This document shows, in pieces, positions 23,076 to 64,000 of a stretch of 64,000 nucleotides of DNA. Position 1 is the stretch's first letter. Each line of letters opens with the position of its first letter. The notes beneath the pieces are model-generated. The model had not been told where the DNA came from. It ran no database searches and saw only the letters and a list, made by a program, of their open reading frames with translations. The position numbers and the translations under genes are program-made. Source of the DNA: Nymphaea colorata (lineage: Eukaryota; Streptophyta; Magnoliopsida; Nymphaeales; Nymphaeaceae); assembly GCF_008831285.2 (NCBI RefSeq), contig NC_045138.2:31653934-31717933 (forward strand), read 5' to 3'.

Positions 23076-23737
23076 CAATGTGTTTTGTTAGTTTATTGGT
23101 TCCTTGTTAGTTTATTGGTTCCTGGTTTGGCAATAGAATAACTTTGGGAAGCGTGTATTCAGGTTGTACACGATAATAACGTGATTTTTACAATTTTCTA
23201 TTAATTAATCTGGCTTTATGCTTTTATGTATGCCAGTCTATTTTTCTTGTTGAGTTCGACTTGAAAAACCAAATTCCGAAGCACAAGATTTATTATGGAC
23301 ATTTGCAAAATCAACATTTAAATAAATTCACAATTTTTGAAAAATAAAATTAACATTATTGCTTTTTTTTTTTTGCAGACAAAAAGAACTTAAAATAGCG
23401 CGTCATTTACCCCGAGATTTTCCGGTGAAACACGCTGCAGTTATGCCCATCAAGCGGCGGCTCTGCTGCAAACAAGTGAGGTCGGAAGCCGTTCACCCCG
23501 AGCCTTTCAATTCATGGCTTTCGGCCTAAATATTTGATCGGAAATCTGAAAAGTTTTGGTTCCCGATTGAACATTGTCCCTGCTTTACTGCGTTTTCGTC
23601 GCTCTATTCAATGTAAGGCGAACTATTCTTGGCTTGTCTCAACATCCGATTTCCATGAATGAGTATCATGATTCTTGGGGAAAATCAGGGTTTACCCTAA
23701 AACCCTGAACTTTTTGTTCTTTTGAACGAATCTCTTG

Positions 23738-25615
23738 ATGGGGAGCAGGAGAAGATGTTCCGGAGGTTTGCTTAAGGTTCTTAATGTAGGCACTTGTTCT
23801 TCATGCCAATCAATGAGTTCTTCCACATTTTACCGCTTCACTAATTTCCGGGTTCAGAAAATCGGGCTATTCCATTTATGTGATCCCAAAACAGGAAGCT
23901 TTCAGCCATTTGGGATACAATTTCGTGATTTCTGTTCTAGCCGCACTTTATATAGCCCTTTAGGTTGCAGTCTCGCCCATTCTTTTAGTTGTAATCCGAT
24001 CAGGTTATGGAATAGATGTGGAGGAATCGACATTGCCCACGATGCTGAATCGAGATTTCATATACTCAAGTTCGCGAAATCGTCGATTTCATTGCATTTG
24101 GACAGTGCGCCCTTCTGTTCATCTTCGCTAGAGCAAATTGATGGCTGCAATATTGATGATATCCATGAAGGGTATTCTTGGTCTGAGGATTGTGAGAAGT
24201 TGTTTAGAGCTATAAGTGAGAATTCTGAAGCTGATCAGCGTATGGAGGATGCTCTTGAATCAGCTGGTGCATCAGTGACTACTGAAACTGTTGGAATGGT
24301 GCTTCACCGGCTTCGGTTTGATGAAAAATCAGCGCTGAGGTTCTTCATATGGGCTTCTCAGCAAGAAGGTTATAGCCACCAACCGCCGACGTATAATGCG
24401 ATGATCGACATACTTTCTTGCACAAAGTATAAGGCCAAACAGTTTGGGATCGTCTGTGATCTCTTGGATTACATGAAACGGAAGAAAAGGAACTATGTAC
24501 CAATCGAAATGCTTCTCGAGATACTCCGCAAGTACACTGAGAAGAATCTCACGTCCCTTGGGAAGTTTGCAAAAAAGAAGAAGATCAGAGTCAAGACGAA
24601 GCCGGAGATCAATGCATTCAATTTACTGTTAGATTCTCTGTGCAAGAGTGGACTGGTCGGTGAAGCCGAGTCCATGTTTAAGAAGCTCAAAGCTAAGCTT
24701 CCCCCTGACGCAAGGACCTATAACATACTGTTTTTCGGGTGGTGCAGAGCGAGGAAGCCTACGAAGGCCATGGAAGTGTTGGAAGAAATGATTCAGATGG
24801 GGCATACTCCTGAAAATTTCACCTACAATGCTGCCATTGATGCATTCTGCAGAGCTGGGATGGTTTTGGAGGCTTCTCAACTGTTTGAATTCATGAGGAC
24901 TAAAGGATCAACCATGTCATCCCCCACAGCGAAAACTTATTGCATCATGATTGTGGCATTGGCGAAGGCGGATAGGATGGACGAGTGTTTTCAAGTCATT
25001 GCAGATATGAGAAATAGCGGTTGTCTTCCTGATGTTTCGACTTATGTAGGATTGGTTGAAGGAATGTGTTCTGCAGGTAAACTTGAAGAGGCTTATAAAT
25101 TCTTGGATGAGATGGCAAACAAGGGCTATCCGCCTGATATTCTTACTTACAATTGTTTCCTGAAGGTTCTCTGCAACCGTAGACAGGTTGATGATGCTTG
25201 TGCTCTGTTAGAAAGAATAAAAGTATCAGGTTGTTTGCCAAGCGTGCAGACTTACAATATGCTGATTACCATGTTCTTCAACGTGGGCCAAATCGAGAAG
25301 GCTACTGAATTATGGAATGAAATGAACAAGATTGGTTGCCCACCAGATATTGATTCTTATTGTACAATGATCGATGGACTGTTCAAATCCGGTGACTCTG
25401 ATAATGCTCGCCTTTTTCTGAATGAGATCATGGAGAAGAGAATTAAACTGCCATATCGAAGATTCGATTCATTTTTAATGAGGCTGTCAGCCCTTGGTGA
25501 TCTGCAAATGATTCATCAGTTATCTGAATACATGCGGAGGTTCTACAACCACGCTATGACAAGGCATTTTGTGAGAAGTGAGAAGCGGAAGAGTATGAGC
25601 TTGAGAAGAAAATAG
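23738..25615 (+). CDS. P-class pentatricopeptide repeat protein, intronless, 625 aa
   Basis: This is a single exon from ATG at 23738 to TAG at 25613-25615. The same frame is open for one more codon upstream, but that codon is TTG, so 23738 is the start. The N-terminal ~70 residues are rich in Arg, Ser and Cys and nearly free of acidic residues, as in organelle-targeting peptides. From residue ~216 there are about nine 35-residue P-type PPR units, for example TYNILFFGWCRARKPTKAME, TYNCFLKVLCNRRQVDDACA and TYNMLITMFFNVGQIEKATE. The protein ends in a basic tail (SEKRKSMSLRRK) with no E, DYW or SMR domain. P-class PPR proteins bind organellar RNA base by base and act in its stability, splicing, processing or translation; the target here cannot be read. 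A lone intronless gene is normal for this family. Confidence 0.93.
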   Translation: MGSRRRCSGGLLKVLNVGTCSSCQSMSSSTFYRFTNFRVQKIGLFHLCDPKTGSFQPFGIQFRDFCSSRTLYSPLGCSLAHSFSCNPIRLWNRCGGIDIAHDAESRFHILKFAKSSISLHLDSAPFCSSSLEQIDGCNIDDIHEGYSWSEDCEKLFRAISENSEADQRMEDALESAGASVTTETVGMVLHRLRFDEKSALRFFIWASQQEGYSHQPPTYNAMIDILSCTKYKAKQFGIVCDLLDYMKRKKRNYVPIEMLLEILRKYTEKNLTSLGKFAKKKKIRVKTKPEINAFNLLLDSLCKSGLVGEAESMFKKLKAKLPPDARTYNILFFGWCRARKPTKAMEVLEEMIQMGHTPENFTYNAAIDAFCRAGMVLEASQLFEFMRTKGSTMSSPTAKTYCIMIVALAKADRMDECFQVIADMRNSGCLPDVSTYVGLVEGMCSAGKLEEAYKFLDEMANKGYPPDILTYNCFLKVLCNRRQVDDACALLERIKVSGCLPSVQTYNMLITMFFNVGQIEKATELWNEMNKIGCPPDIDSYCTMIDGLFKSGDSDNARLFLNEIMEKRIKLPYRRFDSFLMRLSALGDLQMIHQLSEYMRRFYNHAMTRHFVRSEKRKSMSLRRK

Positions 25616-29644: not shown

Positions 29645-30763
29645 CTTACATGACACTTGCCAACTAAAGTGCAGTATATCTACTGTTTGCAGTTCAAAAG
29701 AGTAATACCAATGAACATTGAATTGATGACCGAACTTTTACCAGTTTGTGAGCTAGATCAGTTATTCTACACTCACCTAAATGTTTTACCCACAAAGGAC
29801 ATTAACCATTTTCCTTATGAAAGTAAATCCATACAAAGTACTTGGTTTGGGACAATCATCTTCGAAACAACATTTGTTCAAAAAAGTGCTGACATAATTC
29901 AACATGAAAATCAAACATGTCCAATTCATTTACATCTCTAATCGTCATGCTTATTTGGGTGAAGTTAACGTTCAAAGGGCTTGAAGAAATTGAATGTGTA
30001 AGGGGTGGGTGAGTTTTCATTCAGAATAAAGAGCCTGAGGGCACCCCCGATGATTTCTTTTCCCACCCATCAAACAAGTCAAAGAGATTTATTTTTATTC
30101 CGCGTAAAGAGATTGCAGGCACCCTGGATGACTTCTTCTGCTTATCAAACGCCCGAAAAAAGATTCATTGGGGTTGAATTTCTCAACCAGAATAAAGTGA
30201 CGAAAGGAAACGAAAAATATGACAAAACTTATTATAAAAACTTTTTTGAATAGGAAGGAAAGAAGAGTAATTTTTTTTAATGCCAAATAAAAAAAATTTA
30301 AACACTATAAAACTTATTATCTAAAGAAAATCCTTTTTGTTAGACTATATGGATTCAAGAGTGCCGCATGTCAAGTTTTGAAAAAGCTATTTTACATGTA
30401 AGGTATTTTTTTATTTTTATTTTTCAAGTTTTTTTTAAATAACTACTAAATATTTTATCACATAATTTTCTAGTAAAAAGGAAAACTAATAATGAAGCTA
30501 ACTATTAACACAAAGAAATAGTACAAAATAACGATAACAATACAACGAACAAATTTTCTTCTGGATTTGGGAGAGCTCTACCATTTTACTGTCGTACAAT
30601 TTCTTTTTCCTAAAACTTTTTCAAGAATATTATTAGAGCGCCATCAAACGCTATGAGTCCAAACCGAGTCCGAACCGTTAACTTCTTTCTTCTTCGTCTT
30701 CCTTTTCGCCTCCCTTTCTTCTTCGACTTCCTTCTGACCTCGTTCTCTGTAGGAGAGTAATCG

Positions 30764-33700
30764 ATGGCTTCAGAATTCCCGGATATAGAGCCGTCCCAAT
30801 TCGACCTCATTGTCGTTGGCACCGGCCTCCCGGAATCCATCCTCGCCGCTGCTGCCTCTGTCGCCGGAAAATCTGTCCTCCATCTCGACCCTGCTCCGTT
30901 TTATGGCTCCCACTATGCCTCCCTCCCAATCGACGACTTTACTTCCTTCCTCAATTCCCACCAAGAGACTTCTTCTACACTGAATGAGTCACCGTCGGCC
31001 GACGAAGAGAGCGCATTCCTCACGGTGGGTCTGCAGAAGCGGCCGCTATACTCCTCCGTGGAGATCTCCTCTGGCGATATTGGTTCTCTTGGCCGACCCA
31101 GAAGCTTCAACCTGGACCTCTCCGGCCCTAGACTTTTGTTCTGCGCAGACTCAATGGTGGACATGATCCTGAGGTCCTCGGCTAGCCACCATCTCGAGTT
31201 CAAGAGCGTTGAAGCGAACTGCATTTGGGTCGGGGGAGAATTGAAGCCGGTGCCCGACTCGAGAGCGGCCATCTTTCAGGATCGTAGTCTGGGGTTGATG
31301 GTGAAGAACCGGTTGATGAATTTCTTCAAGCTCGTACGTGGTCATTTTGATTCTGAAGGGGGAGAGAGGATTTCGGACGAAGATATGGAGAAGCCGTTTG
31401 TCCAATTCTTGACCGAGCAAGGACTGCCCGACAACGTCAAATGGTACATATCGTCCTCTGCTCTTCTTTTTTGTTACTAAATGTGTCCGTTTTCCTTGTT
31501 TTGTTTCCTCGATGGAGCAAATTGTTTCTTCTTCTCCTCTTTTTAATTCAAATTGGGCGTACACAACTTGTACTTTGGATTTTTTTCTGGAATTTTTGCT
31601 GAATTTTGTTGAGGGAAAGAAATGAAGAGATGATTTTCGGATATTTCCCTCCTTTTCTGTTTCTCGTACTGCCCTTTCAGTTTCCTTGGTAATTTAAAGT
31701 CTTTCCTTTCCGTGAATAGAAGTGAAAACTAAGCCTCATCTGCATTTAGTTCTTTGTTGATCATAGCTGGAATACACCGTTTAAATTTGTTTTCTTAGGA
31801 GTGTTCCTTTTTTTTTCTTATCCCGGCAGTACCAATTTCTTGGCTTTTACATTTTGAACCGTGCGCGTCGAAATCACATTACTGTTGACAATAGGAGTAT
31901 AGGACTACCAACAGTTTCCAGTTTATTCAACTCTAGCTAGGATCGATGCTTAGAGAAGTTGTTGTATTCCTTTTCCTGAAGCATTCTTGTGTTGGTAAAC
32001 TTGTTTAGTATTATTTTGTACGCAATAGCGATGGTGGACTATGATCAAGACAATGCGGAGGCACAGAATCTGATCAAGACCAAAGATGGGATAGAGAATT
32101 TGGCTCTCTATAACGCGTCCAGTGGCAGGTAATCTGTATTTGGTTGCAGCAACTTTGTTAGTCTTCTATAGTTGACCTTTTATGAACTTGTTTTTTTGGG
32201 GCAGTTTACAGTTTTTCTTTGAATTATCCTTTCTAAGGGGTAGAACCAGACATGAAAATAATTGTTAAACTATGGCTAGAGTTGATTTACGTTGGGTAAT
32301 TGATGGCATAATTTTGGTGCTAAATCATGCAAAGGCTTATTTTGCTGAAGACGCTCAAGCATAGAATATGCTGCATTATTATGTTGCATTATTATCTTCA
32401 AATTGATTAATTTACTTGACTAATCAAGACCAATACAAGAATAGGGTTCCAGAGGTCCAAAAAAGGTTGTAGTGGGGTGAGACGGGCTGTTAGACATGGG
32501 CGTCACTCCTTGTGCAAGCTGATGTAAACGTGTAACATTTGATGTCAGAGAGCTATGAGGTGTCTGAAAATAGAAACAAATGGGATGAGAAGATATTTAT
32601 AGAAAATTCTATACAGACCAAGATTTACACCTAAAATGGCTATCCATATCCAAGAGCTTGGTGCTATGCAAATTCTTGTGTGGTCCACTAAGCCACTCAG
32701 GCTTGAGAGGTTAGTGAGAGAAGGTTTAATGATCTTGGTGATGTTCTGAATCGTGAATTGGATTCATTTCTAAAGTTCTAGCTCATAACATAGAGATGGT
32801 GAATTGCATGAGCAGTTTTGCTACACGTAGAAGAAAAAATTTTCTAGAAGGCTTAGGTGGCTTGCGACCTAATGAACAAACTTGAACCTCTGTCATGGCC
32901 TCATGAAACACTCCACTTTGCCTCCCATTATGTATTCTCTTATATAGAAATATATTGGGAAAATCCAATAAACATGGTCGTATTCCCATATTTTCAGCTA
33001 TATCCTTGTGATGTAGGTCTTAACTAGGCCAGCTCAACTGGCTTCCCTTGTTTACTAGCTCTACCAAAAGTACCATCTTCTCAATGTCAAAATGTCCCTT
33101 TTTCTCTTCTCCAGAAAGTAAGATTATAGGCTTCCAATAAATGGAAGTTGCAGGACTGAATTGCTTCAGGTCACCTGTACTCTATCTGACATACCTGGTC
33201 ACTCGGAGATTTCCTTTATTTCACTTCATATCTTATGTTGCAGAAACTGAAACTAGAACAATGGTAGTGTCTTAAGACTGTAAGACATCCTAATACCACT
33301 CAGAATGCCTGAGTTCTTTTTCTTTTTCTTTTTTCTTTTTTTCTTTTTTTTTTTTTCTGTGGTCCTTGCCAGTTTATGTGTCTTTGTGCACCTATTCATA
33401 GGACTGGCTGGGAAACAATCTGAACAAACAGAACAACGCTGTTTGAGCCATTTGAATAGCTCATGCATATCTTACATGTCATAATCAAAGCATGACTCAT
33501 TTTAGTAACAAACAAGCTTGTTCAGTTTCTATCCATGAACTGTTAGGTTGATATGATGATCTGAGCTAAAACTTGACAAGCTAGAGCTTGCAAGGTTGTG
33601 AATGCGCTGTATCTCACATGCTGATAACAGCCCAACTTGTGCTTTTAATGACAAGTCTCATTGGGCTCACAAGTTTGTAGAAGTTGATTTAAGCTTATAG

Positions 33701-55670: not shown

Positions 55671-55705
<35 letters not shown>

Positions 55706-55718
55706 TCTCTCTCTCTCA
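55671..55718. repeat. (TC)n-(TA)n-(TC)n tract upstream of the DVL gene
   Basis: CT repeats, ten TA units and CT again end about 43 bp before the TATA box of the peptide gene. CT-rich blocks close to the start site are common in plant core promoters, so this may be part of it. Confidence 0.9.
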
Positions 55719-55760
55719 TATTAAAGTGTTTGGACTCAAGGGACCCACTGCCCTCGCGCC

Positions 55761-55767
55761 TATAAAT
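55761..55767 (+). promoter_or_regulatory. TATA box of the DVL/RTFL gene
   Basis: TATAAAT lies 54 bp before the ATG at 55821, in a GC-rich context just after the (TC)n/(TA)n block. That spacing leaves a leader of roughly 20-30 bases. Confidence 0.6.
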
Positions 55768-55820
55768 TCGGAAGCACCCTCCCGTAAGCGGCACCGCGAC
55801 CAGCCCCTCCACTTCCACCA

Positions 55821-55994
55821 ATGGCAACCATCACTCCATTTTCCGGCGCCACCGGATCCCGGCGAGCTCGCCGGAAGATCGTCTCCGGGAGGCGGTTCTC
55901 CGAGGTGCTGAAGCAGCAGAAGACCAGACTCTACATACTGAGGCGTTGCATAGTGATGCTTCTTTGCTGGCACGCTCACGCCCTCCCCGACTAG
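55821..55994 (+). CDS. DVL/ROTUNDIFOLIA-like small polypeptide, 57 aa
   Basis: ATG at 55821 to TAG at 55992-55994, 57 codons, intronless. After a basic stretch ([14 protein letters not shown], ~12-25) comes the family domain [20 protein letters not shown] followed by [10 protein letters not shown] (~24-53). The FxxxLKxQ(K/R)xRxYIxRRC(I/V)xMLxCW pattern is diagnostic for DVL/RTFL peptides. They are plant-only, lie at the plasma membrane, and restrict cell proliferation when over-expressed, shortening leaves, pedicels and fruit. Codon use is GC-rich compared with the flanks, and a TATA box lies 54 bp upstream. Three longer minus-strand frames overlap it, but none has a domain. The basic N-terminus and the hydrophobic MLLCW segment agree with membrane association. 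Which DVL/RTFL member it corresponds to cannot be said. Confidence 0.88.
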
Positions 55995-56834
55995 GCCTCG
56001 CACCGACACTCTCCCGTCGAGATTCCGGCCGTTCATAGCCGGGAACCGTCCTCCAGTCGTGCGCCGCTAGCTTCAAGTCTGTTTTTCCCCTTTGCAGAAC
56101 CCGCTGCGGCCGATCCGAAACTGCCGGAATCTTCTGCGCCCCCGGATTCCGGCGAAGTTGGAAGGAGCGGCACGCTCCGGCTTCTGAGTTTTGGAGAGGA
56201 CATGGCCACCGCACGTGCTTGCAGGTCGAGGAGGATTGAGGGGTATTTCGGTAATTTTACAAGAGAAGCGATGTTCTTGCAATCTGGACCATTTATTTGA
56301 CAACGAGCGGCCAAGATTGCTTCCAAGATGAGTGGTTTAAGCCCCTTTGTATATTGTCCTCCATTTATCGACTGTACAACTGGTCAAATCAAATGCCTTT
56401 TCATGGTTAATTTGGATATGGGTCGGATATCTGGTCGGATCCAAATCTGTTGATCAGATTATTCAGTGCGTTTACAAGTCGGGTTTGGCATGCGTTGGCT
56501 TGTATCCCGTCGAAAATGAGTTGATCATAATTTGCCGTGTCCAATACAGCACTCACCATCAGCGTATATTGGATACTTTTTATTTTTTATATTTAAAAAT
56601 GATTATAAATGTGTAACAAAGTAGAAATGCTTAGGCGGGAAATTACTTAGATGCCGAAGCTTAAGCTTATGAGTTGGCTTCGTTATGGAAATTATTTCTC
56701 TACCTAACACTACAAGTTCAAGATTGGTGACATCTTGTCAACTTGGTGATATTGATATGAGAAAAGCCCCTATAACTTCTAGACTCATGACGTCTTGTCA
56801 ACTTGCTGATGTTGATACAATCATATATGTAAGC

Positions 56835-61195: not shown

Positions 61196-61291
61196 GTGAC
61201 GTGTAAGTGGATGTTGGAAATTGGGTATTGATGTTGATCTCGTAGAGGTTCTAGAACATAACTTTTCCAATTTGAAGGAGTTTAACCAGAT

Positions 61292-61526
61292 ATGCCGATA
61301 AAAGCTGTTCAATCTTCTTATAGAGATCGAACAAATGAATTTTTGACGGTAGCAGAGAAACTTAAGAAGTCTATTTCATCCACGGCTAATGGTCCCAGCA
61401 CTGCAAGTTCGAAACCTGAAGGGCCAGAATCTGCTATTTCTATTCAAAAGGAATTTAACAAAAGGGCCTCCAAAATTGGATTTGGGATTCATCAGACATC
61501 ACAGAAACTTTCAAAGCTTGCTCAAT
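61292..61526 (+). CDS. Sed5/SYP3-type Golgi syntaxin, first coding exon (partial)
   Basis: ATG at 61292 opens 78 codons plus one base, ending at a donor AAT/GTAAGT (61526/61527). The sequence has the N-terminal signature of plant SYP31/SYP32: SSYRDRTNEFLTVAEKLKKS (~8-27), a Ser/Pro-rich linker, and EFNKRASKIGFGIHQTSQKL SKLAQ near the exon end. These proteins are Qa-SNAREs of the cis-Golgi that drive ER-Golgi and intra-Golgi fusion. The SNARE helix and membrane anchor are encoded by later exons. I searched the remaining 2.47 kb for the expected next segment and did not find it, so intron 1 probably runs past the window edge. Whether this is the SYP31 or SYP32 orthologue cannot be decided. Confidence 0.88.
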
Positions 61527-64000
61527 GTAAGTGATTCTTATTATGATTTTTTTTTTTGTATACAATTGTTTCCTTTATTCATGTTACTCAAAGTGCTTCC
61601 TGATGTCATGGAAATGTCAGCACCAGTTTATGATGGATGGTTGCATGCATTTTTCGAGTGGTATATCATTTTCATTTATTAATAAGCATCATAGTGATGT
61701 TTGCAAAATCAGTTTCCCCAAGTATTCGGAGACGATCACCAAGTAGGAAATGAAATTATATGTTGATCGGATTGATTAAAAGTGTTTTTGATTAAAAAAA
61801 TTATATCTGGAAAGAAATCAGGAAAACCGAGAAAAATGGGAAACACAATGTAAAAGCATAAATACTTTAAGCAAATAAAAGATGACAAAATTTGAAAAAA
61901 AAAAGGAAGAAAAGTCTAATGTAAAATCAGATTTAAGTTGAATATCGAAAATAATATGTACTTAACAAGATTATGTGATAACTGATTGCTGGATGTCAAG
62001 ATACAATATACCCTGGATGTCCTTTTCTTATGGTAATTCTTAGATTTCTACATGAATCAGAAGAGACTGAGATCTGTGTAAAACTTTCAACAGAGGTGAA
62101 TCTAAAATCCTTTGTGCATTCCCCCAAAAAGATGTAAGACACATCTGAGACTAGGAAAATTCACATGGAAGCAAAAGAATCACTGCTGAAGGGAGCAATA
62201 TTAATATTCTCTCAGGCACAAGATCAGAAAACCAACAAGTTTCAAATTTACAAAGCGATTGATCAGTTACGTTTAGATATGGATGCTGTGGGTTCCATCT
62301 GATGAATAAGGAAATGAAACACAGAAAAAAAAAAGAGTAGAACAGAACTTGAAGATAGATCTGTCAAGTTCCTATGGCAGAAGAAGAAAGAAATACCTTC
62401 TTTGGCAACCTCATGACCTGAATCTTTCTACTCAGTGGACGGATGGCTGCTGGAGTGCTGCTTTGCTGCTTCTGGTGTAAGTAATGCTTGTGAGGTTTCA
62501 ATTTAGGTGAAAAGACCTACAAGGTCATCAATGCGATTTTTATATTTTATGGGCAAAATTGGCAAATCAGGCTGAATGAGAGATTCAGATGATCAAACCT
62601 GTTCAGGTGAATCGGCAAAAGTTGGCTGATCTTTTAAGACCCCTGGCTTGACACGTGCACCAATTAGGAAAGGGTCTGATTTGATTCGAATTGGTGATTT
62701 GTACAACGGTGGATTGTGGAATCTTTTGTTGCTAGATTGTTGTACATTAACTTGGTTGGATGTTGTAGAAATTTGAGCCAAACTGAGACTTGATTAAAGA
62801 TAGTAAATCCATCTCTTATTAATTAGTTCTGCTGGCCGTGTTGCAATGTGATACTGCAAGCAAATGCCTGTTTTTTGTCATGCTTTTGCCAACAAGATAA
62901 CAGTTGTGATTTATTCTCTTTAATTTACAATTCAATGTCATATGGAACTGGATAGACCTTTTCTTTTGTATGAAAATACTTCTTACAATTTTGAATATAA
63001 GAATGTGCTAGCCTTGAACTAACAGAGGGAAATTACTCACACACACTGCTCTTGCGAAAGCCCAGCCTTCACACCTTAAAATTGATAATTCTCTTGGTAA
63101 TTAGGGTTAACTCCCTTAACGACCTTATATACTGCTATCCTATAACATGGGGTGGGTTACTGAGACCTACCATCCACCTGACCCAGTTCCTAAACTGACT
63201 CCACGCAGGGCAGATCCTGCCTCTGCTGATCCGACTATATGGACCTAATAACAGACTTTCCCGACCCACTAACTTCATGCCTAACAGAATGTTATTACAT
63301 TGGTCCAGATACAATATTTCTTCTTCAAGATAGCTAAAGCATTCATGCCAACCCTTTTATCATAGAATTTAAATAGTTTCTAGATAGGTTGTTGAGGCTA
63401 GATCTCCCTTGACAGTATGAAATTGATGAAGCTTGTATTTAGTTTATACTTCGTAATTCGGATTTCTGTTACCTATTATTGGTGTTGTCGGCTGTTAACA
63501 AGAGCTTCCTGTTAAACTTGTCCGTGTCTTAAATGAAAAAAAATTGTTTTCCTTGGTCAACAAAAATGTTCTGACAACAAAAGTTGGCTGTTCAATGGAT
63601 TCCAATGAAGAAAAACAAAGTCATCTATGGTCACCCTAAGGTTTATACAACTTTAGATGACGGGAATCGATAGATTTTACTCAGCTGGATATGATCTTGA
63701 TGTCGAGCTCTACCTCCATAAAGGCACAGGGGAGTAACACCAGGAAGGGAGCAAATAAACACATATATTCATTGTTTATATTTATAAAATATAAATTAGT
63801 AAACAAAAAAAAAAAGCCAAAGAGTACAAAAAATACGAGCTTGACATAGGTGTGGGGCCAGCACCCTTCCAATGGTGTCCATGTAGCATAGATTGGCATA
63901 GGTTGAACCATTGAAGGAATGCAAGAAAGAAGGTTAGACATGGGTAATCAATCATGCAGAACACAATATTACTTTTGGCAAATTAGTTCCTGAATAGCAT
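61527..64000. other. start of a long first intron of the syntaxin gene
   Basis: The interval from the GTAAGT donor to the window end contains no exon I recognise. Short open frames at 61531-61746, 62593-62781 and 63681-63964 have no domain. It is plain AT-rich sequence. Confidence 0.5.

Follow-up and report, generated by a model that had tools for sequence, protein, structure and literature searches.

The stretch of Nymphaea colorata DNA analysed here (the window; 64,000 nucleotides) corresponds to C1:31653934-31717933 of a 407.8-Mb assembly consisting of 783 contigs. A frame of 57 codons lies on its plus strand at window positions 55821-55994, open throughout from an ATG start to a TAG stop, and its coordinates and sequence are exactly those given in an earlier note on this DNA. 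The start is well bounded, since a stop occurs in frame 11 codons upstream of the ATG. The deduced 57-aa peptide matched the Pfam DVL profile (PF08137) with 42.5 bits against a curated cut-off of 19.6 (E = 5.4e-11); the hit to the DVL family on which the earlier note had made its reading depend was therefore obtained at more than twice the cut-off. The match extends over residues 31-49 (55911-55967, plus strand; C1:31709844-31709900) and covers the whole profile from end to end (positions 1-19 of 19), in agreement with the complete RTF domain claimed for the peptide. Based on the sequence and the Pfam match, the RTF domain occupies residues 24-51 (55890-55973, plus strand), near the C terminus. 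The length of the peptide is inside the range reported for Arabidopsis family members (40-144 aa; PMC4408365). A six-frame search of the window for a DVL-like motif pattern gave a single occurrence, and 50 first-order Markov windows gave none.

The peptide has a net charge of +10 and contains two cysteines only, Cys43 and Cys49. The Cys49 codon (55965-55967, plus strand) is, judging by its spacing, the putative counterpart of ROT4 Cys42, i.e. of the S-acylation site described in PMC10897394, a cysteine found in most but not all family members. At the N terminus, no hydrophobic stretch or signal was recognized by eye. A PDB sequence search gave no match up to E 1, three family octapeptides were not found in the text of published papers, and neither Rfam families (gathering cut-offs) nor tRNAs were detected within the window. 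Two ATP-synthase alpha matches of P0001, to PF00306 (16.1 bits; cut-off 27) and to NCBIfam NF009884 (13 bits; cut-off 554), were below the cut-offs and were taken as chance.

A TATA box (TATAAAT) is present at 55761-55767 on the plus strand, 60 bp before the ATG when counted from its first base and 54 bp when counted from its last, the latter being the distance that had been noted before. The same heptamer is found at 16 plus-strand sites in the window, and 0.008 occurrences are expected per 31-bp stretch. A scan for bacterial promoters and terminators, which is not relevant to a plant gene, gave 1 and 0 sites, respectively, against 0.8 and 1.0 in shuffled sequences.

Other open frames noted in the window are a PPR frame (23726-25612, plus strand; 629 codons open), a frame with a Pfam match to the Rab GDP-dissociation inhibitor (30761-31477, plus strand), and, at the right-hand edge, a frame matching the N-terminal, Sly1p-binding domain Syntaxin-5_N (61286-61531, plus strand; 19.1 bits, cut-off 16.6), which is probably exon 1 of a SYP3-type syntaxin. 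The DVL frame had been regarded as the only supportable coding gene between 36.7 and 61.3 kb. The region 36.6-61.4 kb contains 90 stop-to-stop frames of 60 codons or more. Pfam was run on 21 of these (three of them from the start codon only), and the DVL frame and the edge frame were the only ones that matched; this result is compatible with the claim but does not prove it, as short exons escape such a survey.

Paralogues and coding strand

The DVL genes most closely related to the window gene, identified by alignment with its peptide, are two divergently oriented paralogues separated by 5 kb on C6: L019 (C6:2884300-2884470, plus strand) and L020 (C6:2879196-2879366, minus strand). Both align with all 57 residues of the window peptide, at 72% and 65% identity. 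When window positions 55700-56400 were compared with the genome at the DNA level, these two copies were the only other matches, and the matching segments (window 55817-55992, 81%; 55842-56027, 78%) correspond nearly to the coding frame alone. In the C6 minus-strand copy, TATAAAT is likewise found at -59, and the C6 plus-strand copy has a TATAAG variant (CTATAAG) at a similar place, which is outside the stricter pattern used for counting. A tree was constructed from the 24 DVL peptides in this genome having a Met and the conserved end. Only 6 of its 21 inner branches are well supported, because the peptides are short; the window gene and the two C6 genes are grouped with a support of 99/100.

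The idea that the C1 and C6 copies arose from a duplicated segment was considered and is not supported. The Rab-GDI-like frame had no second genome match at E 1e-6, the syntaxin-like frame had a single other match at E 0.001, situated 13 Mb away from the C6 pair at C6:16.0 Mb, and among the many PPR matches in the genome, the best one for the PPR frame other than itself was on C7. A C6 segment of approximately 20 kb surrounding the pair matches the window at the DVL gene alone (blastn, E 1e-5; tblastn with 712 window frames, each 40 codons or longer, E 1e-4).

In the sense frame, the dN/dS values (Nei-Gojobori) of the three pairs of copies were 0.31, 0.56, and 0.30, which are rough estimates from 57 codons, and the changes at codon positions 1/2/3 were 10/7/16, 14/10/15, and 9/6/18, respectively. 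The third-position excess is almost nil in the pair of the window copy and the C6 plus-strand copy (dN/dS 0.56; 14/10/15), which is weak evidence. The remaining two plus-strand frames gave values of 0.73-2.01 in the three pairs. The window peptide is thus encoded by a constrained frame with homologues in the same genome, and the earlier reading of the plus strand is borne out by two paralogues in which this frame is preserved over its whole length, dN/dS being below 1 in each of the three pairs.

The earlier note had also described three longer minus-strand frames overlapping the gene. Among minus-strand ORFs of at least 30 aa with an ATG, GTG, or TTG start that overlap 55821-55994, longer ones do exist, but two rather than three: a 106-aa ORF starting with ATG (55716-56036) and a 127-aa ORF starting with GTG (55831-56214), the other two being 30 and 47 aa in length. 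A 97-aa minus-strand ORF at 56033-56326 does not overlap the CDS. On the plus strand, the CDS is also overlapped by a 61-aa ORF with a GTG start (55726-55911). Were one of the antisense frames the real gene and the DVL-like frame a chance reading, the greater length of the former, 106 and 127 aa from the start codon (116 and 141 codons from stop to stop), would be accounted for; however, neither of the two ORFs matched any Pfam family up to E 1, and neither phase is constrained. The phase of the 106-aa ORF, which is directly opposed to the sense frame (antisense phase 0), gave dN/dS values of 1.26, 0.80, and 1.18 in the three pairs and is closed by one stop inside the CDS of the C6 minus-strand copy, whereas that of the 127-aa ORF (phase 2) gave 1.73, 1.55, and 1.94 and contains two stops in each C6 copy. 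The third antisense phase (phase 1) showed lower values (0.39-0.67), but it is interrupted within the CDS by three stops in the window copy and one in each C6 copy and is therefore not a gene.

Like the window copy, the C6 plus-strand copy has the directly opposed phase open over the whole CDS. This is unhelpful to the plus-strand reading, but it needs no gene as its explanation. None of the 57 codons of the window CDS is TTA, CTA, or TCA, the codons that produce stops in the directly opposed phase, and when the peptide was recoded synonymously at a GC3 of 0.7 or 0.8 (observed, 0.75), this phase remained open in 17 and 33% of 5000 draws, respectively, so that a long opposite frame is unremarkable. 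Antisense frames of varying extent were found at all three copies. The gene lies in a GC-rich stretch (55721-56220), in which every 100-bp bin between -100 and +400 relative to the ATG has a GC content of 0.59-0.64, compared with about 0.34-0.38 in the surrounding sequence; the same bins in the two C6 copies range from 0.50 to 0.65. The long antisense frames can be attributed to this composition, and the longer opposite-strand frames look like by-products of GC-rich sequence. We therefore judged the 106-aa and 127-aa ORFs not to be genes and consider an antisense gene very improbable; the DVL match, the conserved plus frame, and the unconstrained antisense phases together indicate that the plus-strand peptide is the gene. 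A short gene lying under longer opposite frames can thus be separated from them by comparison inside one genome, without RNA data.

The same frame is open for a further 101 codons past the TAG (55995-56297, plus strand), and readthrough of this stop would yield a 159-residue protein. Both C6 copies, however, have a TGA after 57 codons, with frames closing 14 codons further on, the extension has no Pfam match, and long open frames are common in the GC-rich stretch, all of which makes readthrough extremely improbable. Somewhat less remote, though still improbable, is that the window gene is a DVL pseudogene or silent duplicate in which the frame is intact and expression has been lost. Within its three-gene group, the window copy sits on the longest end branch (0.36 vs 0.15 and 0.071), and a DVL-like frame lacking Met is present elsewhere in the genome (C2:34233899), which would be in keeping with such decay; against this, the start, stop, and full domain of the window gene are intact, dN/dS is below 1 in both pairs containing the window copy, and the TATA box has been kept.

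The locus is thus best explained, with a probability of roughly 95%, as a nuclear plant DVL/RTFL gene on the plus strand with a TATA promoter and apparently one coding exon, acting by a mechanism that we infer from its relatives.

Predicted mode of action

By sequence criteria, the window peptide belongs to the RTFL/DVL (ROTUNDIFOLIA4-LIKE/DEVIL) family. On this basis the gene is real and ordinary, one more member of a large, well-known and well-described group of plant peptides that regulate growth. It shares with the family (PF08137) the complete C-terminal RTF domain, the short length, and a variable N terminus. Signal peptides are predicted in none of the family peptides, and the overexpression phenotype is reported to have been obtained with the RTF domain alone (PMC4408365). 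Arabidopsis ROT4 is described as non-secreted and S-acylated mainly at C42; S-acylation is required for it to localize to the plasma membrane, and it interacts with BSK5 (PMC10897394). RTFL18/DVL1 is likewise reported at the plasma membrane, binds BSK3 and BSK6, and lowers brassinosteroid signalling in shade, and the modelled RTFL18-BSK3 complex makes contact through one long helix (PMC10613268).

The mechanism published for these relatives is the most likely one for the window peptide, by analogy. The 57-residue peptide would not be secreted and would form a single helix; Cys49 of its MLLCW motif would be S-acylated, attaching the peptide to the plasma membrane, where it would bind BSK receptor-like cytoplasmic kinases. 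Such binding may dampen brassinosteroid and growth signalling or alter immune signalling, and the expected net effect would be to limit longitudinal organ growth. A single-sequence AlphaFold2 model consists of one helix (residues 14-54), with pLDDT block means of 82 and 90 for residues 31-50, but its overall confidence is low (mean pLDDT, 65.8; pTM, 0.35), the first 20 residues averaging below 50. This agrees with the long helix that RTFL18 is reported to form in the modelled BSK3 complex (PMC10613268). In hydrophobic moment, the RTF segment does not stand out from its own shuffles (reached by 1962 of 5000), and amphipathicity therefore adds no support.

The two domain cysteines are spaced six residues apart in both the window peptide (Cys43 and Cys49) and ROT4 (C36 and C42), from which Cys49 is inferred to correspond to the S-acylated C42, whereas the additional C9, C12, and C19 reported in ROT4 (PMC10897394) are absent from the window peptide. 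With respect to RTFL18, the hydrophobic, Arg, and His residues reported to contact BSK3 appear, by position counting, to be kept in kind; the counterpart of D51, however, would be Ala52, in an alignment that follows the positions given in PMC10613268. Because this Ala stands after WH, one reported BSK3 contact may be missing.

The tail following CW is a possible further difference: it reads HAHALPD (WHAHALPD with the Trp), and among the 24 aligned members such a tail is found elsewhere only in the two C6 copies, as W(H/Q)AHALSD. The other 21 members end in WHD (6), WYIHG(D/E)D (8), WRDY (2), or other sequences (5). A tentative and rather unlikely proposal is that, in the group of three genes sharing the tail W(H/Q)AHAL(S/P)D, membrane anchoring through Cys49 is kept and BSK binding is altered or directed to another kinase; if this were true, the altered choice of partner would stem from the Ala at the reported contact position. 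Asp is likewise lacking at this position in at least nine other members (WYIHG or WYIQG); its absence is therefore not peculiar to the three-gene group and marks no special loss.

DVL genes elsewhere in the genome

In total, at least 25 PF08137 matches were found in this genome, all above the cut-off, and none in 14 control genomes. In 24 of the 25 matches listed, the frame has a Met and the conserved C terminus; the exception (C5:2486131) lacks a Met and covers 10 of the 19 profile positions. In other plants, too, DVL genes have been detected by homology, 117 of them in four cottons, and in cotton nearly all are credited to whole-genome or segmental duplication (PMC10816595).

Eight intact DVL genes (L014-L017 and L023-L026), all on the minus strand, are arrayed within 77 kb at C2:34198212-34275228, and the Met-less frame at C2:34233899 mentioned above lies in the same interval. 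The pooled pN/pS of the eight genes is 0.31 (28 pairs). The size of the array looks unusual in view of the duplication modes described for cotton, and no account of large DVL arrays was found among the papers listed in literature searches. A second tandem array, of five genes (L012, L021, L022, L027, and L028), also all on the minus strand, spans 21 kb at C11:18244141-18264712; three of the five were compared and gave a pS of 0.375 and a pN of 0.035.

Substitutions at the position matching the S-acylated ROT4 C42 were observed in two members. L026 of the C2 array (C2:34228662-34228718) has MLVRW, with Arg replacing the Cys, and RTFL13, for which Arg is reported at the same position, is described as spread through the cell (PMC10897394). 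L031 (C11:10816067) has Ser at this position.
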